DNA of 64,000 nucleotides from Bacteroidota bacterium. Lineage in GTDB: Bacteria; Bacteroidota; Bacteroidia; Chitinophagales; Saprospiraceae. This document shows, piece by piece, positions 19,511 through 60,719 of the stretch. How positions within the stretch are numbered: position 1 is the first letter of the stretch; each line of letters begins with the position of its first letter. The stretch spans positions 124,001 through 188,000 of the forward strand of contig WGNL01000014.1 in NCBI GenBank assembly GCA_016124585.1, written 5' to 3'. The position numbers and the translations under genes are program-made. The notes beneath the pieces are model-generated. The model saw nothing but the letters and a program-made list of their open reading frames with translations, ran no database searches and had not been told where the DNA came from.

Positions 19511-19588
19511 ATTGCTTTATTGTTGGATTGTTACATTGTTCACATTCGTTATGCGGGCAACAATATAACAATCCAACAATTCAACAAT
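19511..19588. repeat. Inverted pair of 8-bp tandem arrays between convergent genes
   Basis: Left arm: four units of the form ATTGNNNN, mostly ATTGTTNN, with starts at 19511, 19519, 19527 and 19535. Right arm: four units of the form NNAACAAT starting at 19557, 19565, 19573 and 19581. The arms are nearly complementary and 14 bp apart, so a long hairpin can form. It fills the gap between the sigma-like gene and fabF, both ending here, and may terminate both. The same octamer design occurs at 43800-43862 and 60646-60719. Confidence 0.7.
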
Positions 19589-20832
19589 TATTGGTATTTC
19601 TTCAGAATCACCGAACCATTGTGACCGCCAAACCCGAAGGTATTGCTCAGCACGGACTTAACATCCCGCTGCTGCGCTTCGTTAAAGGTCAGGTTGATGC
19701 GAGAATCGAGCTCTGGGTCGTCGGTGAAGTGGTTGATGGTAGGTGGCACAAAACTGTGCTGAATGGATAGTACCCCAGCGATAGCCTCAATCGCCCCGGC
19801 TGCACCAAGCAAATGCCCAGTCATGGACTTGGTGGAGCTGACATTCAGTTTAAAAATATTGTCACCAAAAACCTGTTGGATGGCCTTCACTTCAGCAATG
19901 TCACCAAGTGGAGTGGAGGTGCCGTGGACGTTGATATAATCTACTTCGTCAGCGTTCATTTTTGCATCGGCGAGGGCAGCTCTCATCACATTGGCAGCAC
20001 CAAGTCCCTCTGGGTGTGGGGCGGTTATGTGATAAGCATCAGCCGTGGCACCAGCACCAACAAGCTCACAAAGGATATTTGCGCCACGCTTTTTAGCGTG
20101 TTCTAAATCTTCCAGTACGAGTATGCCAGCACCTTCACCGAGTACGAAGCCCTCCCGGTCGAGGTCGAAGGGGCGAGAAGCTGTTGCGGGATCGTCATTG
20201 CGGGTGGAAAGAGCCTTCATGGCGCCAAAGCCACCGACTGCAACCTTCACGATGGTTGCTTCTGTTCCGCCAGTTATCACTACGTCGTTGCGTCCCAAAC
20301 GGATATTGTCAAAAGCGTTCATGATGGCATGTGAAGAGGATGCACAAGCGGAAACGATGGCATAGTTGATACCTCGGAAACCATATTTCATTGACACATG
20401 TCCGGAGGCAATGTCAATGATCATTTTAGGAATAAGAAAAGGATTGTAACGGGGAATGCCGTTGCCAGTGATGAAGTCTTCCACCTCTTTTTCCAAAGTG
20501 GAGAGACCACCGATACCGGATGAAATGACCACGCCTACTCGGTCGCAATCAAGTTTTTCGGGGTCAAGGCCAGCTTGTGCTATGGCTTCGTCCGCAGCCA
20601 CCATGGCGTAAACGGTGAAGTCGTCAAGGCGGCGGACTTCTTTTTTATCAATAAAATCCTCAGCGGTGAAGTTTTTGACCTCGCAGGCAAATTGGGTCTT
20701 GAAATTGGTAGCGTCGAAATGTGTGATGGGGCCAGCGCCGCTGATGCCGTTCTGCAAACCATCGAGGTATTCCTTGATATTGTTGCCGATGGGGGTCAAA
20801 GCGCCAATGCCAGTGATGACAACCCTTCTCAT
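19588..20832 (-). CDS. fabF: Beta-ketoacyl-ACP synthase II
   Basis: The protein has 414 residues from the ATG at 20832 (MRRVVITGIG), the usual FabF start; an upstream ATG at 20853 would add seven residues. FabF condenses malonyl-ACP with acyl-ACP in fatty-acid elongation. The Cys-His-His catalytic set is visible: VSACASSS (about 160-167), NVHGTSTPLGD (about 300-310) and KSMTGHLLGAAG (about 332-343). It lies downstream of acpP in the same direction, the standard arrangement, with a hairpin between them. Confidence 0.98.
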   Translation of the reverse strand: MRRVVITGIGALTPIGNNIKEYLDGLQNGISGAGPITHFDATNFKTQFACEVKNFTAEDFIDKKEVRRLDDFTVYAMVAADEAIAQAGLDPEKLDCDRVGVVISSGIGGLSTLEKEVEDFITGNGIPRYNPFLIPKMIIDIASGHVSMKYGFRGINYAIVSACASSSHAIMNAFDNIRLGRNDVVITGGTEATIVKVAVGGFGAMKALSTRNDDPATASRPFDLDREGFVLGEGAGILVLEDLEHAKKRGANILCELVGAGATADAYHITAPHPEGLGAANVMRAALADAKMNADEVDYINVHGTSTPLGDIAEVKAIQQVFGDNIFKLNVSSTKSMTGHLLGAAGAIEAIAGVLSIQHSFVPPTINHFTDDPELDSRINLTFNEAQQRDVKSVLSNTFGFGGHNGSVILKKYQ

Positions 20833-20935
20833 AAGTTTAGTTTTAAATGGCAAAAACAGGAGGCAGACGGAGAATTAGGGCGAAGTCAACTGCCAAGACC
20901 TGCGCTGCATGAATGAATGTAAGTGCAAGAAGAGA

Positions 20936-20973
20936 GAAGCCAAAAACCCGCACAGGGCGAGGTTTTTGGCTTC
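20936..20973 (-). terminator. Hairpin between acpP and fabF
   Basis: GAAGCCAAAAACC (20936-20948) pairs perfectly with GGTTTTTGGCTTC (20961-20973) around a 12-base loop, 28 bp after the acpP stop. There is no clear T tract after it on the leftward strand, so it may be a partial terminator that makes acpP message more abundant than fabF message. Confidence 0.6.
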
Positions 20974-21000
20974 GGCTAGTAATCTATTCGGACGGGCTTT

Positions 21001-21234
21001 TTACGAATTGGCTTCGATGTACTCGATTGCCTGTCCTACAGTTTGGATTTTTTCAGCCTGCTCGTCTGGGATGGAGATATCGAATTCTTTCTCCAATTCC
21101 ATGATGAGTTCTACGGTGTCGAGTGAATCGGCACCAAGGTCGTTGGTGAAGCTTGCCTCTGGGGTAACTTCTGATTCTTCAACGCCCAGTTTCTCTACGA
21201 TAAGACTTTTTACGCGATCTGCAATGCTAGACAT
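21001..21234 (-). CDS. acpP: Acyl carrier protein
   Basis: The protein has 77 residues from the ATG at 21234 ([11 protein letters not shown]); an upstream in-frame ATG at 21243 would add three residues. ACP carries growing acyl chains on a 4'-phosphopantetheine attached to the serine of the DSL motif, seen here in [14 protein letters not shown] (about residues 33-46). It is strongly acidic, as expected for ACP. It precedes fabF in a fatty-acid synthesis pair. Confidence 0.98.
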
Positions 21235-21627
21235 ATCAAACACTGTTTAAGTGGAAAAAAAGCTTTTTGGATATTGGACCCAGGCCCTTGCATCGGTGCC
21301 GATTTCTTGCCAGCAAAACTCGATGCAACCGGATTTCCTTTGTCCTTTGCTCCAAAAGGGTTTTGAAATTTCGTGCAAAGAAAGGCAAAGTCGGGCGATT
21401 GGAAAAATTTTTTTGGAAAAGCAACAGAACATTGGAAGTGCTGGACTCTTTTCCGAAAAATTATCAACTTAGATTTGCCAAGTTTGCAGAGCGGTGTACA
21501 TTTGGCGGCCAATGAATTTTGTCAAAAATACACTTAGCCTCCATCTCCCATAATTTTTAGGGCTTTTAGCTGGTTTTGTTTTTGAAAAATAGGAACCCTA
21601 CTAGGCTCACCTTTAATAAAAAAATAA
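21235..21627. other. Divergent intergenic region of acpP and pyk
   Basis: About 390 bp between the divergent acpP and pyk genes. Several short overlapping frames exist on both strands but none resembles a protein. It should hold both promoters; the pyk one is listed separately. No riboswitch or stable RNA fold was recognised. Confidence 0.5.
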
Positions 21628-21657
21628 TTTGAATCTGGCAGATTCTAAGCAAATTTG
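21628..21657 (+). promoter_or_regulatory. Bacteroidota-type promoter candidate for pyk
   Basis: TTTG (21628-21631) is followed after 18 bp by CAAATTTG (21650-21657), one mismatch from TAnnTTTG. The predicted transcript would begin roughly 37 bp before the pyk start codon. Confidence 0.4.
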
Positions 21658-21699
21658 CACGTTTAGTGCGCCCAAAACACCCTTCAATTTTGCAAACCT

Positions 21700-23133
21700 A
21701 TGATGAGCAAGGACGAAAATAGTACAAAGATTGTCGCCACTGTTGGGCCTGCAAGCAGCAATTATGAAATGCTGAAAGAGCTTGCCATTGCTGGCGTTGA
21801 CATCTTTCGCCTCAATTTTTCACACGGTAAACACGAGGCCCATAAAGAAGTTATCAACCACATCATGCGGCTCAACGAGGAACTGGACGCCCATGTGGGT
21901 ATCCTCGCCGACTTGCAAGGCCCAAAGCTTCGGGTCGGCACCATCAAAAATGAGCCGTTGATGTTGGACAAGGGCGATGTCATCACCTTCGTGAACACGC
22001 CATGCGAAGGCACCAAGGAGGCAATCTACATGAGTTACCAAGCGCTGGCGGAGGATGTAAACCCTGGCGAGACAATACTCGTTGATGATGGCAAGATAAG
22101 GCTGAAAGTGCTTGAGACTAACCGACAAGACACCGTTAAGCTGGAAGTTACCCACGGCGGCCCGATCCGCTCCAATAAGGGGGTAAACCTACCCAACACG
22201 AAGGTCAAATTGCCTGCGCTCACTGAAAAAGACATCCGAGACCTTGATTTCATACTCACGCAGCCCGTCAACTGGATTGCGCTCTCCTTTGTGCGTAGTG
22301 CACAAGACCTTGACGAACTTTGGCGACGGATCACTGCTAAAGGACACCCTGCCAAGGTCATTTCAAAGATAGAAAAACCGGAGGCACTGGAAAATATCGA
22401 TGAAATCATCAAAAACTCAAACGGCATCATGATAGCCCGTGGCGACTTGGGAATCGAGACGCCCATTGAAGGGTTGGCCATGACCCAGAAAAGTATCATT
22501 GCGAAGTGCATCAAACGCTCAAGGCCCGTAATCGTGGCCACGCAGATGATGGAGTCCATGATGGAAAACCCGACACCTACTCGCCCAGAGGTGACGGATG
22601 TTGCCAATGCTGTGCTCGATGGCTGTGATGCCGTCATGTGTTCTGGCGAAACGGCCATGGGAAAGTTTCCCGTTGAGGTAATTGAGACGATGGGACGCAT
22701 CATCAGTGAGGTAGAGTCCAATGACCTCTACCAATTGCGCTTTCCGGAGCCATCCCCAAACTCATCTACTTTCCACAGTGATGTGGTTTGCTACGGTGCG
22801 GTGGACGTTGCTGAACGCATTGATGCCAAATGCATCACGGGTATGACGGTTTCAGGCTACACGGCTTTCAAGGTTTCAAGCCGAAGGCCGAAACGCAAAA
22901 TCTGCATCTTTTCAGGTCAAGTGCATATCCTCGCCACCCTAAACCTCGTTTGGGGAGTAAAAGGCTTTTACTATGATAAATTCACGACCACAGATGAAAC
23001 CATCGAGGATACCCTCGCCATCTTAAAAGCGGCAGGTGAAGTAGCTGCTGGGGATGTGGTTGTCAATATTGGCTCAATGCCTTTGCAAAAACGCCTCCGC
23101 ACAAACATGATGCGTGTGACGGTGGTGGAATAA
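21700..23133 (+). CDS. pyk: Pyruvate kinase
   Basis: This 477-residue protein matches the normal bacterial length. It converts phosphoenolpyruvate and ADP to pyruvate and ATP, the last step of glycolysis. N-terminal TKIVATVGPAS and FRLNFSHG form the start of the barrel. The active-site signature ISKIEKPEALENIDEI (about 220-235) carries the catalytic lysine, followed by GIMIARGDLGIE for metal and substrate binding. A B-domain and a C-terminal regulatory-type domain are present. A second ATG is at 21703. The dut gene begins 9 bp after the stop, suggesting cotranscription. Confidence 0.98.
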   Translation: MMSKDENSTKIVATVGPASSNYEMLKELAIAGVDIFRLNFSHGKHEAHKEVINHIMRLNEELDAHVGILADLQGPKLRVGTIKNEPLMLDKGDVITFVNTPCEGTKEAIYMSYQALAEDVNPGETILVDDGKIRLKVLETNRQDTVKLEVTHGGPIRSNKGVNLPNTKVKLPALTEKDIRDLDFILTQPVNWIALSFVRSAQDLDELWRRITAKGHPAKVISKIEKPEALENIDEIIKNSNGIMIARGDLGIETPIEGLAMTQKSIIAKCIKRSRPVIVATQMMESMMENPTPTRPEVTDVANAVLDGCDAVMCSGETAMGKFPVEVIETMGRIISEVESNDLYQLRFPEPSPNSSTFHSDVVCYGAVDVAERIDAKCITGMTVSGYTAFKVSSRRPKRKICIFSGQVHILATLNLVWGVKGFYYDKFTTTDETIEDTLAILKAAGEVAAGDVVVNIGSMPLQKRLRTNMMRVTVVE

Positions 23134-23142
23134 ATTTTTTTC

Positions 23143-23574
23143 ATGCGCGTAAATATCATTAACCGGTCACCTTTTCAGCTCCCGCAATACGAAACTACGG
23201 GCAGCGCTGGCCTTGATCTTCGGGCAAATATTTCGGAGCCAATTTCCCTAGATTCATTGGAAAGAACTTTGATACCAACCGGACTTTTCATGGAACTGCC
23301 CTTAGGGTACGAAGCGCAAGTCCGGCCCCGCAGCGGGCTTTCCATCAAAAAAGGCCTTAGCCTTGTGAACTCACCAGGCACCATTGATTCAGATTATCGT
23401 GGCGAAATCAAAATCGTCCTCGTAAATCTTTCCAACCAAACGCAGACCGTGGAACCCGGCGAACGCATTGCCCAAATGGTTATTGCGAAGTACGAGCAAA
23501 TCGAATGGCAGGAAGTTGAAGTGCTTTCAGAAACGGACAGGGGAGCAGGTGGATTTGGCAGTACTGGGGCATGA
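23143..23574 (+). CDS. dut: dUTP diphosphatase
   Basis: This 143-residue trimeric-type dUTPase hydrolyses dUTP to dUMP, keeping uracil out of DNA and supplying thymidylate synthesis. All five conserved motifs are visible: [39 protein letters not shown], and the C-terminal arm [10 protein letters not shown]. It begins 9 bp after pyk and is probably cotranscribed with it. Confidence 0.98.
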
Positions 23575-23733
23575 GGTATGAAATTTGCCACATAGAAGGA
23601 GCTTAGTTTATGGGATTGTTTTTTAAGATTGCACAAAATTCAAAACCTTCTACCTGAAATCATAAATCAAAACCTACCGTACAAGTAACGAAAACGTGCA
23701 ACTTCCCGCATCCTAAACTTGAAACTGCTTCTT

Positions 23734-24741
23734 ATGAAAATCATTATCCCAATGGCAGGCCGGGGAACTCGCCTTCGCCCACACACACTCACACTCCCAA
23801 AGCCGCTCATTCCAATAGCTGGTAAGCCGATGGTACAACGCATCGTCGAAGACTTGACTGCTGGATATAGCGGCAAAATCGAGGAAATTGCCTTCATCAC
23901 CGGGGACTTCGGCAAGGAGGTAGAGCAAGAATTGGTCAGTATCGCCAACAGCTTCGGAGCAGAGGGACGCATTTACCACCAAACACAACCTCGTGGCGTG
24001 GCGCATGCTATCGGCTGTGCTAGCGAAAGCTTGAATGGCAATGTATTCATCGCATTCAGCGACACACTATTCCGGGCAGATTTTCATTTTGACACCAATG
24101 AGGAGGGTATTATTTGGGTAAAAAAAGTGGAAGACCCCTCGTCGTTTGGTGTAGTGAAAACCAACGAAAAGAGCATCATCACCGACTTTGTTGAGAAATC
24201 GCCAGTGTTCGTTTCCGACTTGGCAATCGTGGGGCTTTACTACATTCGGGAAGGTGAATTGCTGCGTGACCAAATCAAGTTTTTGATAGATAACAACATC
24301 AAGGACAAAGGTGAATTTCAAATAACTTCCGTGCTGGAAAACATGAAGGCGGGCGGTTACCAGTTCCGGGCCAGCGGCATTGATGAGTGGTTGGACTGCG
24401 GGAACAAGTTGAACATCGTGGATACTAACCGCCGAATGTTGGAGATAAAAAACCCAATGGAGCAGCTTATTTCGCCACTGGCGGCTATTGAAAACTCTAT
24501 TGTCATCGAACCTTGCTTTGTGGGCGCTGGTGCCAAAATCGTGAACTCGGTTGTAGGACCGCACGTTTCTGTTGGCAATAATTCGGTCATTACAAACTCT
24601 ATCCTCAAAAACAGCGTTATTCAAGGTGATACGTTTGTCACCGATGCTCTTTTACAAGATTCGATGGTGGGCAACCACGTAAATTACGAAGGTCATGTAT
24701 CGGATGTCAGCATTGGTGATTACACAAGTTTTAAAGCGTGA
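23734..24741 (+). CDS. Sugar-1-phosphate nucleotidyltransferase family protein
   Basis: The protein has 335 residues from the ATG at 23734 (MKIIIPMAGRGTRLRPHTLT); a farther ATG at 23719 is less likely. The Rossmann-like N-terminal domain has the nucleotide-binding G-x-G-T-R-L-R-P signature and KPLIPIAGKPM. Such enzymes make NDP-sugars from sugar-1-phosphate and NTP. The C-terminal part (about 250-335) has hexapeptide repeats typical of a left-handed beta-helix (IENSIVIEPCFVGAGAKI, GNNSVITNSILKNSVI). The sugar and base specificity cannot be told. No sugar-biosynthesis gene adjoins it. Confidence 0.85.
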   Translation: MKIIIPMAGRGTRLRPHTLTLPKPLIPIAGKPMVQRIVEDLTAGYSGKIEEIAFITGDFGKEVEQELVSIANSFGAEGRIYHQTQPRGVAHAIGCASESLNGNVFIAFSDTLFRADFHFDTNEEGIIWVKKVEDPSSFGVVKTNEKSIITDFVEKSPVFVSDLAIVGLYYIREGELLRDQIKFLIDNNIKDKGEFQITSVLENMKAGGYQFRASGIDEWLDCGNKLNIVDTNRRMLEIKNPMEQLISPLAAIENSIVIEPCFVGAGAKIVNSVVGPHVSVGNNSVITNSILKNSVIQGDTFVTDALLQDSMVGNHVNYEGHVSDVSIGDYTSFKA

Positions 24742-24763
24742 GCGTTCAAATATTTGAGTATTT

Positions 24764-24796
24764 GAGGCTAATTTTGGCGCAAGCCTCTAGTTTTTA
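24764..24796 (+). terminator. Terminator after the nucleotidyltransferase gene
   Basis: GAGGCT (24764-24769) pairs with AGCCTC (24782-24787) across a 12-base loop, followed by TAGTTTTTAG. It lies 22 bp past the stop codon. Two copies of TATTTGAG precede it. Confidence 0.55.
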
Positions 24797-24827
24797 GCGC
24801 TCCAAATGTCCAAACCCTAAGCATTAA

Positions 24828-26330: not shown

Positions 26331-26831
26331 TGGTGCTTTCCCCAAACCTTGCGAGTAATTTGTGTTAAACCTGCCAAAGCGATTCACGTAAAATCAATTT
26401 TGCAACTGCCTCTGTCTGCTAACACCTGCAACGTAATTCATTGATTCCTGTCTTTTCAATACGCCTTGTCCAAATAATGAAACCAACAAAACTTTGGCGT
26501 AGAAAGCATCTTAGCAGACAAACTTTTCATGAATTTATGAAATGAGCTAAAATGTTTTGGATATTCAAATGCTTGTTTGATATTCGCTTTGCCTTTTCTT
26601 TTAAACCCGAGCATTCTGCCGGTTAGCGTCACAGGGGAAATTCAACCCTTGTTTGGGAAATAATCCAATGCATGTCCAAAGTGCTGTTGTTGCCATGATT
26701 GGTAATCTATAACAGCAAGCTTCACTTGTTGCAGCAAAAGCAACAGAAATATATAGTTATTTCCTAAGTGCGACTCACTATACACTCAGATTAAATTCTC
26801 ACAATTGATTTGATAACTAAATTTTTTAAGC
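26331..26831. other. 500-bp upstream region of the second susC, no gene seen
   Basis: No coding frame or RNA gene could be supported. A weak dyad, CAGCAAG and CTTGTTG, lies near 26713-26731. The region should hold the promoter and any operator for the second susCD pair. No sequence like the 21-bp-spaced repeat of the first locus was found, and no regulator gene is adjacent. Confidence 0.45.
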
Positions 26832-29810: not shown

Positions 29811-29835
29811 CTTGAACTAAAAAATTAATTGAGAT

Positions 29836-31137: not shown

Positions 31138-31142
31138 TGTTT

Positions 31143-31198
31143 TTTTCAAAATAAAAAGGCTGCCCCTGTTTGCAGGGGCAGCCTTTTTATTTTGAAAA
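31143..31198. terminator. Bidirectional terminator with 26-bp perfect stem
   Basis: The arms 31143-31168 and 31173-31198 are perfectly complementary over 26 bp around a TTTG tetraloop. The core is GGCTGCCCCTG pairing with CAGGGGCAGCC, with A-rich and T-rich outer parts on both sides. It lies between the convergent susD (stop at 31137) and the haloperoxidase-type gene (stop at 31211) and should stop transcription from both sides. Confidence 0.9.
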
Positions 31199-31210
31199 AT
31201 GTGAAGTGAC

Positions 31211-33394: not shown

Positions 33395-33411
33395 GCCGAG
33401 TTTCTTTTGCT

Positions 33412-33419
33412 CAAAGATA
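33412..33419 (-). promoter_or_regulatory. TAnnTTTG element upstream of the haloperoxidase-type gene
   Basis: Read leftwards the sequence TATCTTTG is a perfect TAnnTTTG element, ending 17 bp before the ATG at 33394. No clear TTTG element at the usual distance upstream was found, so the call rests on one element. Confidence 0.4.
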
Positions 33420-33496
33420 CAGGCACAAGGCTCTTCATGGTTGGGGCGTTGGACTTAAATATTCGTTAGAAAATGAAAGAAAGGGTTTTGGTTGAG

Positions 33497-42753: not shown

Positions 42754-43797
42754 CTATTTTTTCGGTTTGTACTTTGACTTATCCATGATAAACTGTGCAT
42801 CCGTTATCGCCAACAATTGCTCCATTGTGGTCTTCGGGTTTTTCTCCATAAACGCTTTCACGATTTGCCAACCCAGCCAATTGGCAGTACGACCGGGCGC
42901 ACCTTCCGGCATGCCGGGTGAGTCCGGGCTGGGCTCCACGAACTTTCGGTAGGTATTGTAATCAGTAGAGTACAATAGTTTTTCCGAGAAAAAATAGGCC
43001 CAGATATTCGCCTCATTTTCATTACACCATGTCACTTGTTTTTGGGAATATTCCAACCTTACGCTGTCAGGCGTATTCGGCAGCAGGTGGTCGAGGATAT
43101 AAAGTTTTTTGCCATTTTGAATCATGTAGTCGATCATCCGGTTACCTTTTGCAGGGCCTGTTATGTCATCCACTAACAATTGCATTGATTTTGAGACAAT
43201 GTGGTCCTTGTTGAAAGTTCGAACGAGGTACTGCGAGAAATTGGGGTTTTCAGGGTTGATGGATTGGTATGGGTAGGTTTCACCAAGGTAAAAATCGAGA
43301 CCCACACCGATGGAGTTTTCACCATACAGGAAACCACCAATGGTGTACTCCGAAATATAGGTGACCACTTCGCCTGATAGTGGCTGCGTTGGGAAATAAT
43401 ATTTGAAAAACTGGAACGCCTGCCTGAAGTCTTTTTCCAGCCTCTTTGAATCTGGTAAAACGACCTGACAAGTATCGTAGAGCTTGCGCACGGCTGGGTG
43501 GGTTATGAAGCCCTTCACGTATTTCGTTGGGCCTTCCGGGGCAATGGTCGAGTCAGTGGAACCGAGCACTTGGCCGAAAAAAATGGGTGCAAATTCTGGG
43601 TATTTTCCTTCCAAAGCCGCTAAACCTGAGGCCACGTCGTTGGTATCAAGTGCAAAGAGATCTTGGTCGAAGCGCCTAATTTTGACATCCACCTGGATGT
43701 CGGAAACATTCGGAATATCTTTACCTTTGCCGCATTCGCAAGCGTTTACACAGAGAAAAATTGCGAAGAGAAGAAATAAGCCGTTTCTAACGTTCAT
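42754..43797 (-). CDS. gldB: Gliding motility lipoprotein GldB-like
   Basis: This 347-residue protein has a lipoprotein-type signal (LLFAIFLCVNAC). IPNVSDIQVDVKIRRFDQDLFALD near the N-terminus is the GldB hallmark, with YTIGGFLYGENSIGVGLDFYLGETYPYQSINPENPNFSQYLVRTFNKDH-type segments in the middle (cores ENSIGVGLDFYLG and SQYLVRTFNKDHI). GldB is needed for gliding in Flavobacterium and occurs in Bacteroidota with T9SS. Its presence agrees with the many T9SS cargo proteins in this window. It is convergent with the SNF2 gene and divergent from the next membrane-protein gene. Confidence 0.88.
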   Translation of the reverse strand: MNVRNGLFLLFAIFLCVNACECGKGKDIPNVSDIQVDVKIRRFDQDLFALDTNDVASGLAALEGKYPEFAPIFFGQVLGSTDSTIAPEGPTKYVKGFITHPAVRKLYDTCQVVLPDSKRLEKDFRQAFQFFKYYFPTQPLSGEVVTYISEYTIGGFLYGENSIGVGLDFYLGETYPYQSINPENPNFSQYLVRTFNKDHIVSKSMQLLVDDITGPAKGNRMIDYMIQNGKKLYILDHLLPNTPDSVRLEYSQKQVTWCNENEANIWAYFFSEKLLYSTDYNTYRKFVEPSPDSPGMPEGAPGRTANWLGWQIVKAFMEKNPKTTMEQLLAITDAQFIMDKSKYKPKK

Positions 43798-43799
43798 AG

Positions 43800-43862
43800 A
43801 TTGTATTGTTGAAATTGCGGAATTGTTTTATTGTTAAAAGCGCCAAAAAACAGTTCAACAAT
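43800..43862. repeat. Octamer array in the gldB/barrel-protein divergent region
   Basis: ATTG occurs at 43805, 43814, 43822 and 43830, mostly at 8-bp steps in units like ATTGTTNN. One inverted unit, TCAACAAT, is at 43855-43862. The design is the same as at 19511-19588 and 60646-60719 but the right arm is reduced. It lies immediately upstream of both divergent start codons and could overlap their promoters. Confidence 0.55.
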
Positions 43863-43890: not shown

Positions 43891-44589
43891 ATGAAAAAAA
43901 TTGTTGCAATCGCCGCCTTTTTTGCGCTCCTGCATAGCGCTGCCAATGCTCAAGAGACTGACCTTAGGCTAGGTTTTCAGGTCAGCCCGACCTTCTCTTG
44001 GATGACGACCGACGATAGTGAAGTAAACAATAACGGAACAAACCTTGGGTTAAAACTCGGGGCCCGGGGCGAAGTTTTTTTTCGGGATAACTATGCCTTC
44101 ATCATTGGTTTGGGCTTTGCCTTCAATACCGGTGGGCAGTTGCGCCATAACCAGTTTTCCAATGCTTGGCAGCGCTCGAAAATTCCAAACGGTGTCATTG
44201 TCCCCTTCCCTGCTGGTACCGACCTCCGGTACAATTTGCAATACGTGGAAATTCCTTTTGGTTTGAAATTCCGCACGAACGAAATTGGTTACCTCCGGTA
44301 TTACGCCGAGTTGCCAGTCCTAACACTTGGCTTCAAGTCGCAGGCGCATGGGCAGGTGGAATATACGAGCATCAAGGAAGACCAGATTGACATCAAAAAA
44401 GAGGTTACACCACTTACGCTTTCGTGGGGTGTGGGCGGTGGCATCGAATACAGCGTGAGCCAAGGCACCTCACTTATTGGCGGTATCAGCTACCAGCGGG
44501 GCTTTACCGATGTGACTAAAAATTACGATGGAGCGAATGAGAAAGCTACTATTAGCAGCATTATCATCCACCTGGGCGTGATGTTTTAG
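43891..44589 (+). CDS. Outer-membrane beta-barrel protein (PorT-like family)
   Basis: This 232-residue protein has a signal peptide ending SAANAQ. The mature part has alternating beta strands and ends in an aromatic residue (IIIHLGVMF), as in small 8-stranded outer-membrane barrels of the PorT/OMP_b-brl_2 type. PorT is a T9SS component in Porphyromonas, but the same fold is shared by many unrelated proteins, so that role is only possible. Its neighbour gldB is linked to T9SS and gliding. A terminator follows the gene. Confidence 0.75.
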   Translation: MKKIVAIAAFFALLHSAANAQETDLRLGFQVSPTFSWMTTDDSEVNNNGTNLGLKLGARGEVFFRDNYAFIIGLGFAFNTGGQLRHNQFSNAWQRSKIPNGVIVPFPAGTDLRYNLQYVEIPFGLKFRTNEIGYLRYYAELPVLTLGFKSQAHGQVEYTSIKEDQIDIKKEVTPLTLSWGVGGGIEYSVSQGTSLIGGISYQRGFTDVTKNYDGANEKATISSIIIHLGVMF

Positions 44590-45498: not shown

Positions 45499-45506
45499 AA
45501 AATCGG

Positions 45507-47960: not shown

Positions 47961-47994
47961 TCTGTTTTTGCCGCAAGTTAGCAGAATGAAAATG

Positions 47995-48081
47995 GGAAAT
48001 TGAAAATTAGAAATTGAGAATTGAAAATTGGTTCCAGCTTACCCGCTCACATCTCACACTCTCACCCGCTCACGCTCTCAC
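47995..48081. repeat. Two adjacent short tandem arrays (7-bp A/T-rich and 7-8-bp CTCAC)
   Basis: AATT recurs at 47998, 48005, 48012, 48019 and 48026, giving a strict 7-bp period with units like GAAAATT. After a short spacer, CTCAC recurs at 48046, 48053, 48061, 48069 and 48077 with 7- then 8-bp steps. The two arrays almost fill the gap between the serine-hydrolase start and the small gene ending at 48086. Neither has an inverted partner. Confidence 0.65.
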
Positions 48082-48085
48082 CCCT

Positions 48086-48370: not shown

Positions 48371-48516
48371 TTTCGTTTCGGATTTAGAAAGAGACGGTTT
48401 TGCAATAACCCATTCCTTTTTTTGGAAAATGAGTAACCCATTTCTAGCTTAATTTCGTTCTCTTTGCTCTTTCTTTTTTTAGATACGCAAAAACGAGTCG
48501 CTCAGATTTTTGAAAA

Positions 48517-49926: not shown

Positions 49927-49951
49927 AGGAATATGAATATGTGTTATGGTC

Positions 49952-54108: not shown

Positions 54109-54192
54109 GGAGTAAGTTGATTAGTCTCAAGTGTTCTGGTGCGCTGGGCAGATGCCTGCCCGAAAATTCGGGCAAAAGTCGGAATTTTGGTA

Positions 54193-54234
54193 ACAACGAC
54201 GTAAGAGATTCTTACGTAAGGGGAATGTCGTTGT
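54193..54234. promoter_or_regulatory. Nested dyad upstream of mod, possible operator
   Basis: The inner dyad is ACGTAAGA (54199-54206), GAT, TCTTACGT (54210-54217). The outer dyad is ACAACGAC (54193-54200) with GTCGTTGT (54227-54234). Both are perfect and share a rough centre. They lie 85-126 bp upstream of the mod ATG. Such symmetry suggests a protein-binding site or a structured leader; no controller gene is adjacent. Confidence 0.5.
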
Positions 54235-54458
54235 GTTAGAAGCTGATTTTCAACTTAAACGGTTCTTGAAAAACATGTATCCAAGAAAAAAAAATTACAA
54301 ACTCAAAGAGGGAACCAAAATATTTCATCAGTTTATTTCAGAATTAACAATTTTAAAATAAAGAGCTTATATTTTTCAATATTTTGCAATAAATTGTTTC
54401 AAAGTCTCCTTGTTTCACCCTCGCTATCCCCTTTATGCCAACGAAACCCCATTTTCCT

Positions 54459-54672
54459 TCAATCAAACTTGACGCATCTTTAATCAGGGCTCATTTTTCC
54501 TCAATTCAAGCTAACAATATGTGTCTGTTGCTACATTTTTTGGCGACAAGACGGGCGGCATCATTGCTGAAAATGGTATTTTTTGAAACAAAAATGGGTA
54601 TTTATAAAACACGGCTGTAATATTGATTGACGAAAAATCAGCTTTAATTGACGAATAATGAACTTTGATTGA
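54459..54672. repeat. Oppositely oriented 21-bp repeat arrays in the mod upstream gap
   Basis: Two and a partial third 21-bp units run rightwards from 54459 (unit boundaries 54459, 54480, 54501), and two and a partial third run leftwards from 54672 (units 54652-54672, 54631-54651, then 54613-54630). Units begin TCAATCAAA or TCAATTAAA and end ATTCG or TTTCG. The facing arrays are about 100 bp apart. The surrounding gap, 54109-54829, has no supported gene. In frame, units would encode S-I-K-x-x-x-S heptads, but no open frame spans them usefully. Confidence 0.55.
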
Positions 54673-54829
54673 AGGGTTTTCAAATATGGATTTACTGAAC
54701 GGAGCCAGTGGGGTTGACCGAAAAATTTTCCCTAACAAACACTTGATAAAAAGAAACAATGTCACCACATTTGACAAGAATTAATACGATAGCGACGAAA
54801 GAATATTTTTAACATAAAACCTTATTCCA

Positions 54830-55603
54830 ATGGCCAGACGCAATTTCTCCGTTGACATTCCGAAAAATCCAGACGATGTCAACAAGCTTGGAAACAACAT
54901 CGTGACCAAGCACACCACCGACGGGGCGGCAAGCCCCATATCTGCCGACCTTATTACTGCACTTACCACAAAACTGACCGAAGGCGACTACCAGTACACA
55001 TTGCAGAAAAACCTCGAACGTGACCGTGAGCAACTTATCGAAGAACGCAACCAGATTCTGGGACTTCTCCCCACGCAGACAACCGTGACCACAGGCACTG
55101 TGCTCTTCCAACTAACCTCCATCCGTGACTTCCTACTTGGCCAGTTCCGTGGCTCGGAGCGCAGGCTTGGCGAATGGGGTTTCATCGTCAACTCGCCCAA
55201 GGGCAATGTACAGGTCGTCATCCCCCGCAACCCCGACAAGATGGTGAAGCTCGTAATTGATATTATTAAAAAACACCAAGACGACGGTGCGGCCAGTATC
55301 CTTTCGGTGTTCGATATGACGGCCCTGCAGAACGCCAACAATACCGCCGCCGCCAAACTTGCGCAAGCGGAGGCTGCCAATCGCAACAAGGAGACGGCTA
55401 CGCAGGCCCGCAACAACGCACTGGGCGCTGCCAAGGGGCAATCTTCGAAGGTGCCCGGCACGGTGTCGTACATCATTCGCTCCATCCGTGACATCCTGCT
55501 CGGCATCTACCGGGGTCAGGAGCAGAAGTTGGGTGATTGGGGCTTCGAAGTGAACTTCAACAATTCATCAAGCGGGGCCACTGTCCCAGTGCCTATCGCC
55601 TGA
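54830..55603 (+). CDS. Internally duplicated hypothetical protein
   Basis: This 257-residue protein is made of two related halves of about 125 residues. Shared landmarks are IPKNPDDVNKLG / IPRNPDKMVKLV near each start, then DGAAS, a long charged or alanine-rich helical stretch, SIRDFLLGQFRGSERRLGEWGF / SIRDILLGIYRGQEQKLGDWGF (cores IRDxLLG, LGxWGF) at each end. There is no signal peptide or catalytic motif. Similar one- or two-unit proteins seem to occur in Bacteroidota, with unknown role. It has its own terminator and lies between the type III operon and a lipoprotein gene. Confidence 0.8.
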   Translation: MARRNFSVDIPKNPDDVNKLGNNIVTKHTTDGAASPISADLITALTTKLTEGDYQYTLQKNLERDREQLIEERNQILGLLPTQTTVTTGTVLFQLTSIRDFLLGQFRGSERRLGEWGFIVNSPKGNVQVVIPRNPDKMVKLVIDIIKKHQDDGAASILSVFDMTALQNANNTAAAKLAQAEAANRNKETATQARNNALGAAKGQSSKVPGTVSYIIRSIRDILLGIYRGQEQKLGDWGFEVNFNNSSSGATVPVPIA

Positions 55604-55623
55604 TTTCAGTTTTGGGAAATAGT

Positions 55624-55660
55624 AAAGGCCGGATGGTATTTGCACCATCCGGCCTTTTTT
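55624..55660 (+). terminator. Terminator after the duplicated protein
   Basis: GGCCGGATGG (55627-55636) pairs perfectly with CCATCCGGCC (55645-55654) across an 8-base loop and is followed by six T residues. It lies 20 bp past the stop. Confidence 0.92.
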
Positions 55661-55719
55661 GGTTTCACAAATAGCTGACATAACCGGCAGTACCAGACTG
55701 CCAAGTGTCGAACTGCCAA

Positions 55720-56265
55720 CTACCCCCCAACTTTCCGTCCCTTCGCCACCCGTGAATTCACGTCCACTTTGTTGATTTTGCGCAAATCCACCAGCAGTGC
55801 GGCATAAGCATTGTCGGAGGAGACTTTCCAGGTCTTGTTGTCGTAAGTGACTTCGCCATTGCGGCGGTCCCAGTTGGAGGCGAGCAGCACAAAGCGGTCG
55901 CTGTACTTTGGGCTTGGCCCAAAAATCAGGTAACGTTCGTTGCTCTCTTCAAAGCCGATGGCAAAGCGGTCTACCTTCGGGCTGAAGAGAAAAGCGCCAG
56001 GAGTCCCTTTTTTGATGACCACCTCCTCAATTTGGCGGCCATCCTCGATTTTGATCTTGCCAGAGACCACCTCCCGGTCACCACCAGAGATTTCCCTTTT
56101 CATCACAATATCCTGTGAAACGTAGAACTGGATTTTCTTCAACTCGTCGTCCGTCCAGCGGTAGCGGTCGTTGAGGTCGTCGGTGAAATAGCTGAGTTTG
56201 TTGCTGCAAGCACCAAGAAAAAGTACACTAAATAGGGCCAAAACTGCCAGGTTTTGTGTTTTCAT
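55720..56265 (-). CDS. Lipoprotein of unknown function
   Basis: The protein has 181 residues from the ATG at 56265 (MKTQNLAVLALFSVLFLGAC), with the lipobox Cys at about 20. The mature part has YFTDDLNDRYRWTDDELKKIQFYVSQDIVM, then a beta-rich domain with VVIKKGTPGAFLF and RFAIGFEESNERYLIFGPSP. I do not recognise the family; comparable lipoproteins are common in Saprospiria. A longer frame from 56301 would bury the signal. Confidence 0.78.
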   Translation of the reverse strand: MKTQNLAVLALFSVLFLGACSNKLSYFTDDLNDRYRWTDDELKKIQFYVSQDIVMKREISGGDREVVSGKIKIEDGRQIEEVVIKKGTPGAFLFSPKVDRFAIGFEESNERYLIFGPSPKYSDRFVLLASNWDRRNGEVTYDNKTWKVSSDNAYAALLVDLRKINKVDVNSRVAKGRKVGG

Positions 56266-56301
56266 AAATTTGACTTTAGATTTTTTTTGAAAAAGATGCA
56301 C

Positions 56302-56591
56302 TGGGAAGCGATTTACCCCTATGCAAATTCACCGGAAAATATACACGGATTTAGGGCAGCTATGCCAGCAAATTAAGGATGTTTAACCGCAGATTAACGG
56401 ACTTTAACGTCACAGAAATTAAAGAATGGCTATTTTACTGTCCTCTTCATTGCCGACATTTGTCCTGTGTTTGTTAAGGATTTTGGTCTCACAGAAGAAT
56501 TTATTTAGGTCTCACAAAATTAGGTCTCACAAAACTAAGCATCCCTAATTTAGGAGTTTAAAAGAAAGAACAAAAAACAACCAGATTAGGG
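56302..56591. repeat. Gap with three GGTCTCACA direct repeats
   Basis: GGTCTCACA occurs at 56485-56493, 56508-56516 and 56523-56531, spaced 23 and 15 bp. The last two share the longer core TTAGGTCTCACAAAA in part. The rest of the gap, upstream of a leftward lipoprotein gene, holds nothing recognised. The repeats could be a regulator-binding cluster for the lipoprotein gene, about 220 bp away, or debris of a short repeat. Confidence 0.4.
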
Positions 56592-56624
56592 AAAAGCGGC
56601 GGCTGTGCAAGCAGCGCCGCTTTT
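56592..56624 (-). terminator. Terminator after the lamin-tail protein gene
   Basis: AAAAGCGGCG (56592-56601) pairs with CGCCGCTTTT (56615-56624) across a 13-base loop. Read leftwards it ends in a TTTT run about 60 bp after the stop at 56675. It would also work in the opposite direction. Confidence 0.75.
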
Positions 56625-56674
56625 TGATTTTGGGCATTGGGCATCCTGTTGTTATCATTTCGATTTCCAAATGA

Positions 56675-59320
56675 CTAGTGACCAAGCTGCCCCGCTACCA
56701 CACAAGTTTTCTTGAATTTCCGCACCGAGCCATCCGTGTTGAATAATTCCAAAGCCACCACATAAATTCCGATTCGGGCCTTTTCCCCATCGTCCGTGTC
56801 GCCATCCCATCGAAGAAAACCTTCTGTGCCCAACAGCTCGTTGTTCGCCAGTGATTTCACCAGCCTGCCGTCCGAGTCGAAAAAACGGACTTTTGCCAAA
56901 TAGCCCGGCTTGTCCACAGTGTAGTTGATGACCAAAAAATCCTTGTAGCCGTCGCCGTCCGGCGAAAAAGTCGGCTCCGCAATGGTGAAAATTCCGTCCC
57001 CAACTACTTGGTTTTCAAAGTATTGGGAATTGCGGTATGTCGGTGTGGCCCAACCAGCACTTTGCGAAGCGGAGTGCCAATTGGCAGCGTCCTGCGTGGT
57101 GCCATCTGGGTGGAGGCGCTCCAGCGAGACCCCATTTTGGTCGTCAAGCAGTGGATTGTGCATGTCAGAATTATAATCGAATGCATCAACAATAACGGCT
57201 TCGGTCTGACCAGCCCGGAAAATGGTCACATTTCCTGCATCATCGTTAAAGGAGGGGAGGTCGTTTTTGAGAAGGGCACTCGGCGTCTGCACCGTGTAGC
57301 GGCTCTGGACGTCGGTTGGGTTCTCGGTAAAAACAGCGTATTCGTCCGGAAAGATGAGGCGGTCGCCTTCCACATTGGAAAGCGTGGTGTCAATCCCCAC
57401 CCGCAGGTTGCCGATGATGAGGTCGCCGAGATTCAGCACTTTTGTGGAGCGGTTGTAAACTTCCACGAAATCCACGCCACCAGTGCTTGGGTTGAACAGT
57501 ATTTCGTTGATAATCAGGTCGTTGGGTTCAATTGTCGCTGGTAGGGCAAATGACAAGGTAGCACTGCCAGAGAGTGCATTGCCGGAGCAATCGGCTACGT
57601 TTTGCACCGTCACTTCGTATAGAACACTGGCTTGTAGGGGGCCGCTTAATTGCACCGTAACCGAATATTTAAATGGGGGAATAAAGCTCACAGAAACCAC
57701 GCTCAAGCCGCCACTAATGCTGTAGTTGGCAGGGTCGAGGCCACTGGCATCATCAAGCCTTTCATCAAAAAAAAGTTGCACCTCGTTAGGCGAGGTAGGG
57801 GTGGCAAATACGGAGGTCAATACTGGGGCAGTCTCATCAGGCAAGGGGTCGAGCACGGAATTGGGTTGGCCGGGAGTGCCGCCCAGTAGGTTTTCGCTGG
57901 CCCGCCAGTTGGAGGAGCCACGGCAAGGTGCATACGGGCTGATTTGTTCCAGCGTCCAGCCACCATCCTGTTTTTGACTGTCACCGTACCAAAACAACTG
58001 GTAGCTCACCTGGTGAATGATGTTGCCGTTGGCATCGGTTAGCGTTAGGTCGTCGCCATCGTTGGTAAGAGCGGGAAAAGTGGTTAGTGCTACCACGTTG
58101 CCGAAGGCAGCAAAAGAATCCACCTTGGAATCGTCGCAGACAATAAGGTAGGTGCCGGGCAGCATTTGATAGCTTGGAAAATGCTGTGGCGTGCTGCCGC
58201 TTGAAAAGCCGTAACCAGCAAGGTCCAGCACCTTGTTTGAACGGTTGTACAATTCGATGAACTCGGCGTTGGGCAGTGCAACTTGGGGCGAAGGGTCTGC
58301 CATTATTTCGTTGATTAAAATATCGTATTCGACTGGCTGTGCCAGTTCTACATAACTAAAATTAGTGGTTTGGGCTTGCGAAATGTTTCCCGCCATATCG
58401 GCTAACCCGCTGGTTGTGAGCGTGTAAGTTGTCAAACTCATCAGTGGCGTGGCTAGCGACAAGTGTACGAGTGTTTTGTTTACCCCATCCAAAAATGCGG
58501 CAGCGGGCTGCCCGATGCCGTTGTCGATATTGTAATTGGCAGGGTCGGTAGCAGTCGTTTCATCTAGGTTTTCGTTGAAAAAGACATCTACTTCAGTAGC
58601 GGAAATCGGCGAAGCTGATACTAGATTTGGTGCTTGGGTGTCGGGCAAAAGCTGTTGGACATTGATGTCATCGAAGAAAAATTTGTCCTTGCGGGTGGAG
58701 GTGTAGAGGCAATGGAATCCGAAATAAAAATTGCCAGCTCCGTAAGTGGCTTCTGTTGTTTCAAATTCCGGGGCGATATTTTGGCCGCCGTTGTAATCAG
58801 CATAAAGCTTCCAAAGGCTGCCAAGTTCACGGGTCATGCGCAGGCGAACCGTGGGAGAAGAGGCAACGCCAGCAACAGTGGCGGTCGCCAAAAGTGTGGG
58901 AACGCCGGCATCTTGCCGATAAAATTGGAGCGCATCGGTGCTGCCATCCGCTCCAGCAAGTAAGTAGTAACCACTACCCGTGAGCAAGTCGGGCGAGTCA
59001 GATTGGAGATAAATGCGCAGTCGGTTGCCATTGCTAGGGTCAAATTCGAGGCGAAAGTACAGCTCCCACACAGCGCTGTCGGAGATGGCAGTCGGAACAT
59101 ACAGCGTTGAACTGCCAGCGCCAAGCGCATTGAGTTGGAGTTCCTTGGCTGCATTTACTTGGAAATTGGCGGCATCGCCCTGCCAAGCTGGATTAGCGCT
59201 TAGGTCGCCGTCAGAGAAGTTATCGAAAATCTGCGCTCCTGCGGGCATGGCTGTAAATAACAGGGAAAATAGGCCAATATAGTTTAATGCCTTTAAGTAA
59301 GCATGGTTGTAAAATCGCAT
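56675..59320 (-). CDS. Large secreted protein with Ig-like, lamin-tail and FlgD-like domains
   Basis: The protein has 881 residues from the ATG at 59320 (MRFYNHAYLKALNYIG), giving a signal peptide that ends MPAGAQ; a start at 59440 would add 40 residues before it. A beta-sandwich domain with lectin-like look (FDNFSDGDLSANPAW...) comes first. Two SbsA-type Ig-like modules (SPISATEVDVFFNENLDETTATDPANYNI; TSPNEVQLFFDERLDD) alternate with two lamin-tail domains (ILINEIMADPSP...EFIELYNRS; LIINEILFNPST...DFVEVYNRS). It ends in a FlgD-like module (FSPDGDGYKDFLVINY, GIYVVALELF). It is probably a surface or matrix structural protein. Confidence 0.82.
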   Translation of the reverse strand: MRFYNHAYLKALNYIGLFSLLFTAMPAGAQIFDNFSDGDLSANPAWQGDAANFQVNAAKELQLNALGAGSSTLYVPTAISDSAVWELYFRLEFDPSNGNRLRIYLQSDSPDLLTGSGYYLLAGADGSTDALQFYRQDAGVPTLLATATVAGVASSPTVRLRMTRELGSLWKLYADYNGGQNIAPEFETTEATYGAGNFYFGFHCLYTSTRKDKFFFDDINVQQLLPDTQAPNLVSASPISATEVDVFFNENLDETTATDPANYNIDNGIGQPAAAFLDGVNKTLVHLSLATPLMSLTTYTLTTSGLADMAGNISQAQTTNFSYVELAQPVEYDILINEIMADPSPQVALPNAEFIELYNRSNKVLDLAGYGFSSGSTPQHFPSYQMLPGTYLIVCDDSKVDSFAAFGNVVALTTFPALTNDGDDLTLTDANGNIIHQVSYQLFWYGDSQKQDGGWTLEQISPYAPCRGSSNWRASENLLGGTPGQPNSVLDPLPDETAPVLTSVFATPTSPNEVQLFFDERLDDASGLDPANYSISGGLSVVSVSFIPPFKYSVTVQLSGPLQASVLYEVTVQNVADCSGNALSGSATLSFALPATIEPNDLIINEILFNPSTGGVDFVEVYNRSTKVLNLGDLIIGNLRVGIDTTLSNVEGDRLIFPDEYAVFTENPTDVQSRYTVQTPSALLKNDLPSFNDDAGNVTIFRAGQTEAVIVDAFDYNSDMHNPLLDDQNGVSLERLHPDGTTQDAANWHSASQSAGWATPTYRNSQYFENQVVGDGIFTIAEPTFSPDGDGYKDFLVINYTVDKPGYLAKVRFFDSDGRLVKSLANNELLGTEGFLRWDGDTDDGEKARIGIYVVALELFNTDGSVRKFKKTCVVAGQLGH

Positions 59321-59432
59321 GTCGGATTTGTTTAGCGAAGCAAGGTAAATGCTTTTGTGAAAAACGGGGGAAAATGGAGTAGGCTTGCCGCAGGGTTTAC
59401 AAAGGTTTAACATGGCTGGGGCGGCTCCAAAG

Positions 59433-59441
59433 TTATCCACA
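59433..59441 (+). promoter_or_regulatory. Perfect DnaA box upstream of dnaN
   Basis: TTATCCACA matches the E. coli DnaA-box consensus at all nine positions and lies 78 bp upstream of the dnaN start. No cluster of further boxes was seen, so it is more likely a regulatory site than an origin. Confidence 0.55.
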
Positions 59442-59455
59442 AACTGTTAATTATT

Positions 59456-59490
59456 TTTGTCACCATATTCTATATCAAAGATTACTTTTG
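59456..59490 (+). promoter_or_regulatory. Bacteroidota-type promoter candidate for dnaN
   Basis: TTTG (59456-59459) is followed after 23 bp by TACTTTTG (59483-59490), a perfect TAnnTTTG element. The transcript would start about 25 bp before the dnaN ATG. The DnaA box lies just upstream of the TTTG element. Confidence 0.5.
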
Positions 59491-59518
59491 CGCAAATTCA
59501 AGACAATCAACCAGTTTT

Positions 59519-60634
59519 ATGAAATTCAGTGTATCCTCATCCGAACTGCTTAAGCATCTCCAAATCGCCAGCGGTGCCATTGCCAGCAGTCCTGTATTGC
59601 CCATCCTCGATGATTTTTTGTTTACCATTGCCAAAAATCAATTGACCATCGCTGCTACCGACTTGGAGACTTCGATTACGAACCAATTGGAGGTCATGTC
59701 TGACGGAGACGGTGCTGTGGCAATCCCAGCAAAGATTTTGCTAGATACACTGAAGGCGCTCCCCGACCAGCCCATCACCATTGCTGTGGATGAGGAGACT
59801 TACGGAATCACGATTACTTCTGCTTATGGAAAATATCGTTTGGCAGGCGAAAACGGACAGGACTATCCCCGCATTCCTGAGTCAGATAAAGTGGATTCGG
59901 TGAATGTGCCTGCAGCAACGCTTGTCAAAGCGATCAACAAAACCCTTTTTGCGACCAGCAACGACGAACTGCGACCAGCCATGACGGGTGTTTACGTCAC
60001 GTTGGATTTCAACAAATTAACTTTTGTAGCGACGGATGCGCACAAATTGGTGAAGTATAGTTTTCAAGGCATTGCCGGTGAGGTGGCTACATCGTTCATT
60101 ATCCCGAAAAAAGCGCTTAATCTGCTGAAAAATGCACTGCCTGCCGATGTGGACGTTAAAATGGCCTTTGACAAAGCCAACGCTTTTTTCACCTTCGGCA
60201 ATACGCACCTAGTATGCCGTCTGATTGATGCCCGCTACCCAGACTACAATGCCGTTATTCCGGTAGACAACCCGAACACCCTCAGCATTAAGCGCAGCGA
60301 TCTGCAAAGTTCGCTCAAGCGCATTGCTATTTACGCCAATAAAACGACCAACCAAGTCATCCTTGATATTGCGCCGGACAGCCTGACTGTATCTGCTCAA
60401 GACCTTGATTTCTCCAACGAAGCCAACGAGCAACTGCCTTGTACCTACGACGGCAATCCCCTCACCATTGGGTTCAATGCCAAGTTCCTCGTGGAAATGC
60501 TTGGTGTTTTAGAAGCAGACGAGGTTAAAATGGAGCTTTCCACCCCTAGCCGTGCTGGCATCCTGCTTCCTGTCGAACCCACGGAAGGCGAGGAAATCCT
60601 GATGCTGGTAATGCCAGTGATGTTGAGCAATTAA
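59519..60634 (+). CDS. dnaN: DNA polymerase III beta subunit (sliding clamp)
   Basis: This 371-residue protein has the normal clamp length and three-domain layout. It starts MKFSVSSSELLKHLQIASGAI, a common DnaN opening. ILDDFLFTI, TDLETSI, GKYRLAGENGQDYPRIPE and FVATDAHKLVKYS are clear family segments, and it ends near EEILMLVMPVML. The ring-shaped dimer tethers the replicative polymerase to DNA. No dnaA, recF or gyrB is adjacent, so this is not the classic origin cluster. The ABC exporter gene follows after an octamer hairpin. Confidence 0.98.
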   Translation: MKFSVSSSELLKHLQIASGAIASSPVLPILDDFLFTIAKNQLTIAATDLETSITNQLEVMSDGDGAVAIPAKILLDTLKALPDQPITIAVDEETYGITITSAYGKYRLAGENGQDYPRIPESDKVDSVNVPAATLVKAINKTLFATSNDELRPAMTGVYVTLDFNKLTFVATDAHKLVKYSFQGIAGEVATSFIIPKKALNLLKNALPADVDVKMAFDKANAFFTFGNTHLVCRLIDARYPDYNAVIPVDNPNTLSIKRSDLQSSLKRIAIYANKTTNQVILDIAPDSLTVSAQDLDFSNEANEQLPCTYDGNPLTIGFNAKFLVEMLGVLEADEVKMELSTPSRAGILLPVEPTEGEEILMLVMPVMLSN

Positions 60635-60645
60635 AAAATGGCTTT

Positions 60646-60719
60646 ATTGTTTTATTGTTTAATTGCTCTCGATTCACCAACCAGGGTCAGACAATTCAAC
60701 AATACAGCAATGAAACAAT
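60646..60719. repeat. Inverted octamer arrays overlapping the ABC exporter start codon
   Basis: Left arm: ATTG at 60646, 60654 and 60662, units ATTGTTTT, ATTGTTTA and ATTGCTCT. Right arm: CAAT ends at 60695, 60703, 60711 and 60719, units of the form NNAACAAT or close. The arms are separated by 18 bp. The right arm runs into the ATG at 60718, so a hairpin in a dnaN readthrough transcript would enclose the start codon. Same design as 19511-19588. Confidence 0.65.

Follow-up and report, generated by a model that had tools for sequence, protein, structure and literature searches.

Tandem-unit hairpins in the intergenic gaps of a Saprospiraceae genome and their likeness to the flanks of PF05635 genes

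What kind of element is a hairpin whose arms are arrays of an 8-bp unit and which carries no gene? The question is raised by a 64,000-nucleotide stretch of DNA (the window) from a Bacteroidota bacterium of the family Saprospiraceae (GenBank assembly GCA_016124585.1, contig WGNL01000014.1, positions 124,001 to 188,000 of the forward strand). Direct reading of the window finds arrays of ATTGTTNN opposite arrays of NNAACAAT at 19511-19588 and 60638-60719, with a decayed version near 43805-43862. Palindromes of this anatomy, with an array of a 7-9-bp unit, a short loop and the inverted array, form a class in which the unit varies by element. Arrays of the same anatomy have PF05635 genes inside or beside them (the family of the 23S rRNA intervening-sequence protein, a relative of the Avd protein found in diversity-generating retroelements); for this reason, the gene-less hairpins are read here as small relatives of the intervening sequence (IVS) type. 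The explanation offered is that the window hairpins are one unit family (ATTGTTNN/NNAACAAT) within a class of intergenic palindromic elements, and that gene-less hairpins are kin to stem-loop elements of the IVS type, being tolerated where genes end and having arms renewed by local copying; taken as a whole, its chance of being correct is judged to be about even.

Anatomy, abundance and range of the hairpins

Hairpin 1 has four ATTG(C/T)T units at an 8-bp step opposite four AACAAT units; its 30-nt arms are 87% complementary and lie 18 nt apart. The left arm (19511..19540) reads ATTGCT TT ATTGTT GG ATTGTT AC ATTGTT, the loop occupies 19541..19558 and the right arm (19559..19588) reads AACAAT AT AACAAT CC AACAAT TC AACAAT. 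Hairpin 3 is made up of a left arm at 60638..60667 (ATGGCT TT ATTGTT TT ATTGTT TA ATTGCT), a loop at 60668..60689 and a right arm at 60690..60719 (GACAAT TC AACAAT AC AGCAAT GA AACAAT). No strand is assigned to any of these features. A first-pass annotation had claimed both facing pairs, placing the second at 60646-60719, and both are borne out. It had also claimed a reduced form at 43800-43862. This hairpin 2 (43805..43862) is present in a degraded and much weaker state: there are four left units at 43805, 43814, 43822 and 43830 (steps of 9, 8 and 8; one is ATTGCG), and the right side has AACAGT and AACAAT only. RNA folding z-scores (plus/minus strand) are -6.2/-8.9 at 19.5 kb, -4.7/-1.0 at 60.6 kb and -3.2/-2.8 at 43.8 kb.

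Chance is ruled out by the count of the two-unit pattern AACAATNNAACAAT: the window has 7 copies, where 100 dinucleotide shuffles predict 0.01. If up to 3 mismatches are allowed, the three-unit pattern occurs 9 times against 0.18 expected. Across the host genome (6.63 Mb, 45 contigs), with overlapping matches included, the three-unit pattern is found 51 times and the two-unit pattern 141 times, against 0 and 9 for reversed controls. The strict hairpin pattern, which is identical on both strands, has 16 nested matches at 11 distinct places, against 0 for the control.

The strict hairpin is present in 13 of the 148 genomes searched, the host's own included: 9/14 in the genus, 4/76 in the rest of the family and 0/58 in other families of the same order. 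Among 296 genomes drawn from the phylum, again including the host, 2 have the strict AACAATNN hairpin. A scan of named genomes gave at least 113 stretches. Among the matches listed, which are a sample of taxa, many are in Saprospiraceae, other Bacteroidota, Ignavibacteria/Chlorobiota-type lineages and Patescibacteria; fewer are in Nitrospinota, Nitrospirae, Omnitrophica, a spirochaete, 'Candidatus Hatepunaea' and one actinomycete. In the handles used here, G000 is the host genome, G001-G013 are its genus mates, L numbers are individual loci or stretches and C stands for contig. At a second locus in G001 (C74:23711-23872), a 30-residue match to the end of FabF (70% identity) adjoins a AACAATNN hairpin, as if hairpin and adjoining coding end had been duplicated together.

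Other units build hairpins of the same design. A detector of inverted repeats with tandem arms was run on the window and on 20 stretches of 20 kb at round coordinates in the host genome (464 kb); it found 42 inverted repeats, of which 10 had tandem arms; three shuffles gave 0.33 and 0 apiece. Hairpins 1 and 3 account for two of these ten, and the other eight lie in the 400 kb beyond the window; in two of the ten the periodicity is faint. There are at least seven arm units: ATTGTTNN, GGATTGAA, TTATGAG, ATTGGGTT-like, TAGACTT, ATCCGTGAA-like and GGTTTAGAA. Seven genus mates have 12 tandem-arm palindromes in 400 kb, one with ATTGTTNN and the others with other units; two of the seven genomes have none. 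For comparison, 100 kb of E. coli K-12 has one marginal case (a pair of repetitive extragenic palindromic, REP, sequences), and 326 kb from 20 other Bacteroidota genomes has three, all from one genome. A search with a checked profile finds no PF05635-like frame in the window or in 40 sampled host and genus stretches; the palindromes there are thus gene-less.

The window contains further repeats. An intergenic palindrome at 54456-54675 has 50-nt arms, 74% complementary and 120 nt apart; its right arm has a 21-bp tandem period, and the region folds to -61.8 kcal/mol. It is possibly a further member with a long loop. At 47987-48083, two adjacent tandem arrays with 7-bp TGAAAAT-like and 8-bp CTCACACT-like units lie in one gap, with no evident inverted partners; a similar unit, GAGAGTGA, makes a full palindrome in G001 (L275, 2461-2546).

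Arrays around PF05635 genes

Orphan 'four helix bundle' genes are often located among short repeats. The host genome has seven PF05635 matches, of which the last two adjoin and are taken as one broken gene. The family is present in all 14 genus genomes, with 2-16 matches apiece, and its flanks in the genus are mostly inverted short-unit arrays, the unit differing by locus. Removal of two cases with a flank shorter than 60 nt and four duplicate views of one gene reduced 47 profile hits to 41 loci, a number which counts both pieces of one broken gene (L179). Flank complementarity exceeds all 50 shuffles at 34 of the 41 loci and tandem repetition does so at 34, with both at 30. Seven loci were chosen for a AACAATNN hairpin and 34 come from PF05635 searches; 4 and 30 of these, respectively, pass for complementarity. 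At 30/41 loci, complementarity is also above the 95th percentile of 523 control ORFs (open reading frames); this control is conservative, since the ORFs were drawn from hairpin-bearing loci. A second count (30 shuffles) gives complementarity across the gene at 34/41, with a palindrome upstream at 14 and downstream at 13.

The pattern is weaker in other Bacteroidota. Among the 30 top-scoring PF05635 loci there, complementarity is found at 14, tandem repetition at 16 and both at 9, and the second count gives complementarity across the gene at 16/30. In six of the other Bacteroidota genomes (L307, L308, L311, L313, L315 and L326) the gene seems, by eye, to lie in one common gene gap, with neighbours of similar sequence to left and right but differing flanking units.

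The design, and some of the unit sequence, is common to the hairpins and the PF05635 flanks. AACAATNN arrays lie on both sides of a PF05635 gene at L070 (Melioribacteraceae), L091 (Bacteroidales) and L165 (a Bacteroidetes metagenome-assembled genome). Of 20 sampled palindromes, six have a 14-mer in common with a PF05635 flank, where 0.5 would be expected; leaving out the ATTGTTNN one gives 5/19. The window copies resemble the flank arrays in anatomy, and some 13-14-mers recur between palindromes and flanks, but no PF05635 gene accompanies the window copies.

One host protein, L175, is in addition a match to bAvd (PF22296, E 1.9e-13); 2rld and 2gsc are relatives of solved structure. A retroelement paper (PMC10053308, excerpts) notes that PF05635 and Avd are akin. 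Four-helix-bundle genes are named among strain-unique genes in the excerpts of PMC8700078.

Placement at gene ends and change at fixed sites

None of 163 hairpins is spanned by an ORF called with a simple caller; the number counts some sites more than once, through overlapping readings (L210, L056). Twenty-four have no called ORF on one side and were left unclassified. The 139 that have ORFs to left and right lie a median of 18 nt from the closest ORF on one side and 12 nt on the other. For 16 hairpins of the host genome, with overlaps of called starts counted, the left gap is at most 13 nt in 13 and the right gap at most 10 nt in 15. Divergent gaps, which hold promoters, are scarce: they account for 3/32 hairpins in the host and genus and 7/107 elsewhere, against 50/202 background gaps of 40-400 nt sampled from the host genome (chi-square p = 0.048 for host and genus).

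Hairpin 1 occupies the whole gap between a DUF6596 (PF20239) protein gene (18199..19506, plus strand) and the converging fabF, for beta-ketoacyl-ACP synthase II (19588..20853, minus strand); its right arm terminates on the fabF stop codon. Hairpin 3 fills the gap between dnaN, for the DNA polymerase III beta subunit (59519..60634, plus strand), and an MsbA-like ABC exporter gene (60718..62532, plus strand) whose score is under NCBIfam's MsbA cut-off. It begins directly past the dnaN stop codon, and its last right-arm unit overlaps the ATG at 60718, taken as the likely msbA-like start codon. Hairpin 2 lies in the gap between two divergent genes, a gldB-like lipoprotein gene (42754..43797, minus strand) and an outer-membrane beta-barrel protein gene (43891..44589, plus strand).

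The location at gene ends, for which the annotation had proposed a test, is genuine; intrinsic termination is unsupported. T-runs past stem ends are at the level of random intergenic positions (56/323 and 166/1010), which argues that the hairpins are not ordinary intrinsic terminators, and terminator scans covering hairpins 1 and 3 listed no site at either. The intrinsic terminator was rejected on these two grounds. Elsewhere, at 31142-31199, the window has a perfect 27-bp inverted repeat with T-rich and A-rich ends, which looks like an ordinary two-way terminator.

The fabF 3' site is readable in 13 genomes of the genus, the host's own included; G013 has no readable 3' flank. Nine of the 13 fold with z <= -3 on both strands, using several unrelated sequences and units, so the inverted pairing that the annotation proposed to follow in relatives is kept at this site. 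G005 and G011 have AACAATNN at the same place and beside the same neighbour where G006 has GTGATTN. The hairpin upstream of msbA is found in the four genomes that keep dnaN there (the host, G008, G001 and, shortened, G013). Nine other genomes with an msbA orthologue have a different upstream sequence and no AACAATNN hairpin by eye; G010 has no orthologue.

Fourteen pairs of loops with the same unit type on both sides could be set side by side. Between the host and G001, which have both neighbours and the arms in common at fabF, the loop of hairpin 1 is inverted (direct 3, inverted 14; 0/300 shuffles as good). The loop is likewise inverted between G005 and G011, which have another neighbour in common (3 vs 12; 0/300), and, more weakly, between the Peribacteria loci L119 and L154 (6/300 shuffles as good). 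Orientation is the same in four pairs (0/300 shuffles as good) and in a fifth, non-significant one; six pairs are unalignable. In one of the four, L138/L171, both copies come from a single assembly. A conserved loop core (TCGTTATGCGGGC-like) was considered and rejected: likeness to it exceeds 100 shuffles per loop in 6/39 loops of the host and genus but not, on average, in those of other phyla, and the core 13-mer with one mismatch occurs 4 times genome-wide against 11 for the reversed control. It is therefore a loose likeness of a subset only.

Unit number and unit identity vary between orthologous hairpins, and adjacent spacer dinucleotides are identical in 175/578 cases against 7.9% expected. 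Both results support the local copying of units that had been proposed. The companion proposal, that pairing is selected, holds at the level of the site, where strong fabF hairpins are kept despite sequence change; at the level of bases the evidence is mixed. In the host genome, the spacers of the two arms are not significantly complementary (34/88 vs 0.320 expected; 59/500 permutations as high); their complementarity exceeds all 500 permutations in the genus set, which also includes a few genomes of the family (46/90), and in the other set (220/498). In the other set it is equally high out of register; array homogeneity thus explains much of it. Same-variant unit pairs between arms are weakly enriched (15/183 vs 5.5%; 13/300 permutations as high), and base-level covariation of unit variants was set aside as weak.

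Known systems and competing explanations

IVSs of 23S rRNA also have complementary, stem-forming ends. The Coxiella IVS has terminal inverted repeats that give a 28 bp stem, and its loop contains an S23p ORF; RNase III cleaves IVSs, and their origin is called unclear (PMC4990558, excerpts). Insertions in rRNA genes of candidate phyla radiation bacteria also carry PF05635, a family described there as functionally uncharacterised (PMC11270868, excerpts). The hairpins differ in that their arms are arrays of 7-9-bp units and in that they sit among protein genes, with no Rfam match in the window. Nor is there a PF05635-like frame in the window or the sampled palindromes, whereas the gene is present within the AACAATNN arrays at L070, L091 and L165. 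Since the window copies lie outside rRNA and have no ORF, they are not members of the 23S IVS group.

REP sequences, bacterial interspersed mosaic elements and REPINs (REP doublets forming hairpins) are dispersed intergenic palindromes, as the hairpins are, but REP arms are not known to be tandem-unit arrays, and the host's Y1_Tnp frame is bordered by palindromes of another kind. Short tandemly repeated repetitive (STRR) sequences of cyanobacteria are short tandem units in intergenic regions. These and long simple sequence repeats share with the hairpins the intergenic tandem array, with units of 5-11 nt; here the unit is 8 bp, or 7-9 bp in the sister palindromes. The nearest published cases in the open-access literature searched are heptamer direct repeats (PMC4679880) and a heptanucleotide hairpin (PMC3488679). 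TAACTGA arrays (MacGregor 2015) are intergenic, patchy in Cyanobacteria, Bacteroidetes and Beggiatoaceae, and change mainly by indels in 7-nt steps; they are in direct orientation, in contrast to the inverted facing pairs described here, and the parts of PMC4679880 consulted do not mention a PF05635 link. The hairpin is P6b of the Nostoc tRNA-Leu intron; it differs in being intron-internal, at one locus and of 7-bp units. The exact string AACAATTCAACAAT was not found in the open-access literature searched, and the titles and abstract starts covered there gave no description of such arrays around PF05635 genes. The annotation's remark that no named element has this design fits the literature searched.

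The main rival holds that the hairpins are host parts selected at gene ends, as a two-way transcription barrier or as protection of mRNA 3' ends; any long stem would serve and the unit could be swapped. This is possible, if on balance doubtful. It would account for the strong folds at the fabF 3' site in 9/13 genomes with several unrelated sequences, and for the scarcity of divergent gaps; it is opposed by T-runs at the random level, by the lack of a listed terminator at hairpins 1 or 3 and by the lack of sense/antisense asymmetry. Moreover, 4/13 genomes have no strong fabF hairpin, and one of the window hairpins runs into the start codon of the gene that follows. Selection on the RNA strand through tolerance of G-U pairs, a related candidate hinted at by the window copies, was dropped because it is absent across 101 same-direction gaps. 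Replication slippage and template switching alone, without function or mobility, could also leave simple-sequence arrays wherever short units at gene ends escape selection. Identical adjacent spacers and the varying unit number of orthologues speak for this, as do the intergenic heptamer direct repeats known in Cyanobacteria and Bacteroidetes (PMC4679880, excerpts). It is nevertheless unlikely: local slippage does not account for the return of the same ATTGTTNN unit at many unrelated loci within a single genome and across distant phyla, and the arrays of the counted palindromes face each other.

Movement by a REP-associated Y1 transposase (RAYT), as for REP/REPIN-type elements, would suit hairpins that are intergenic, palindromic, dispersed and multi-copy, but is highly improbable. 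The sole Y1_Tnp match of the host genome without inner stops (C35:60968-61183, just below the family cut-off) is flanked by another palindrome, CACGGACTGCCAGTCCGTG-like, found at four places in that stretch; besides, tandem-unit arms are not a known feature of REP. RAYT as the mover is thus unsupported. The palindromes beside this frame (L335, L253) are GTAACACGGACTGCCAGTCCGTGC-like, and four of them lie in a span of about 5.5 kb; this looks like a REP/RAYT-type system apart from the tandem-unit hairpins.

Several results also count against kinship with IVS-type elements. No Rfam family is found in the window, and pairing is not favoured on the transcribed strand (55 vs 44, p = 0.75; 101 same-direction gaps). 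Tandem repetition at PF05635 flanks exceeds the control 95th percentile at 10/41 loci only, the controls being array-rich, and significant flank pairing is missing at 16 of the 30 loci beyond the genus. L165, the plainest case of facing AACAATNN arrays, has flank complementarity within the shuffle range, and none of the host's own PF05635 genes is flanked by AACAATNN. A PF05635 match is found in 232 of the 296 phylum genomes (220 over the cut-off), against 2 for the strict AACAATNN hairpin. Finally, sharing of 10-mers between palindromes and PF05635 flanks is at the random level (3/20 above the 95th percentile) and that of 11- and 12-mers is near expectation; the excess is confined to 13-14-mers.

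If the hairpins are nonetheless IVS-type relatives, long stems with a free loop would be placed where a break in the message or a folded segment does least harm; the stem-loops would tolerate transcription because, at gene ends, they can be cut out of the message or ignored in it. RNase III could cut a transcribed stem. Arms would lengthen by slippage and be kept alike by copying of one arm from the other, while the loop would flip when arms recombine or the polymerase switches template. PF05635 may help the elements to spread. A wider version would unite PF05635 genes and gene-less tandem-arm palindromes as a single superfamily of IVS-like elements, mobile and intergenic, of Bacteroidota and Patescibacteria. 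What is recognised would then be the architecture, an inverted array of a 7-9-bp unit, rather than a fixed sequence; an Avd-like protein would act in trans, possibly together with a reverse transcriptase, and arms would be built anew at each site. This version is tentative and rather unlikely.

The window also encodes, at 627-4727 on the minus strand, a big secreted protein with five laminin-G-like repeats about 630 bp apart and a Por secretion tail, which is ordinary for Bacteroidota.

The hairpins may represent a kind of genomic passenger, perhaps an undescribed one. PF05635 matches are frequent in Bacteroidota (232/296), often with several copies per genome. The constant architecture and changing sequence at the ends of PF05635 genes, together with similar gene-less palindromes, provide a concrete handle on these elements; it allows one to count them, to measure how fast they turn over in strain collections and to test what the protein does.

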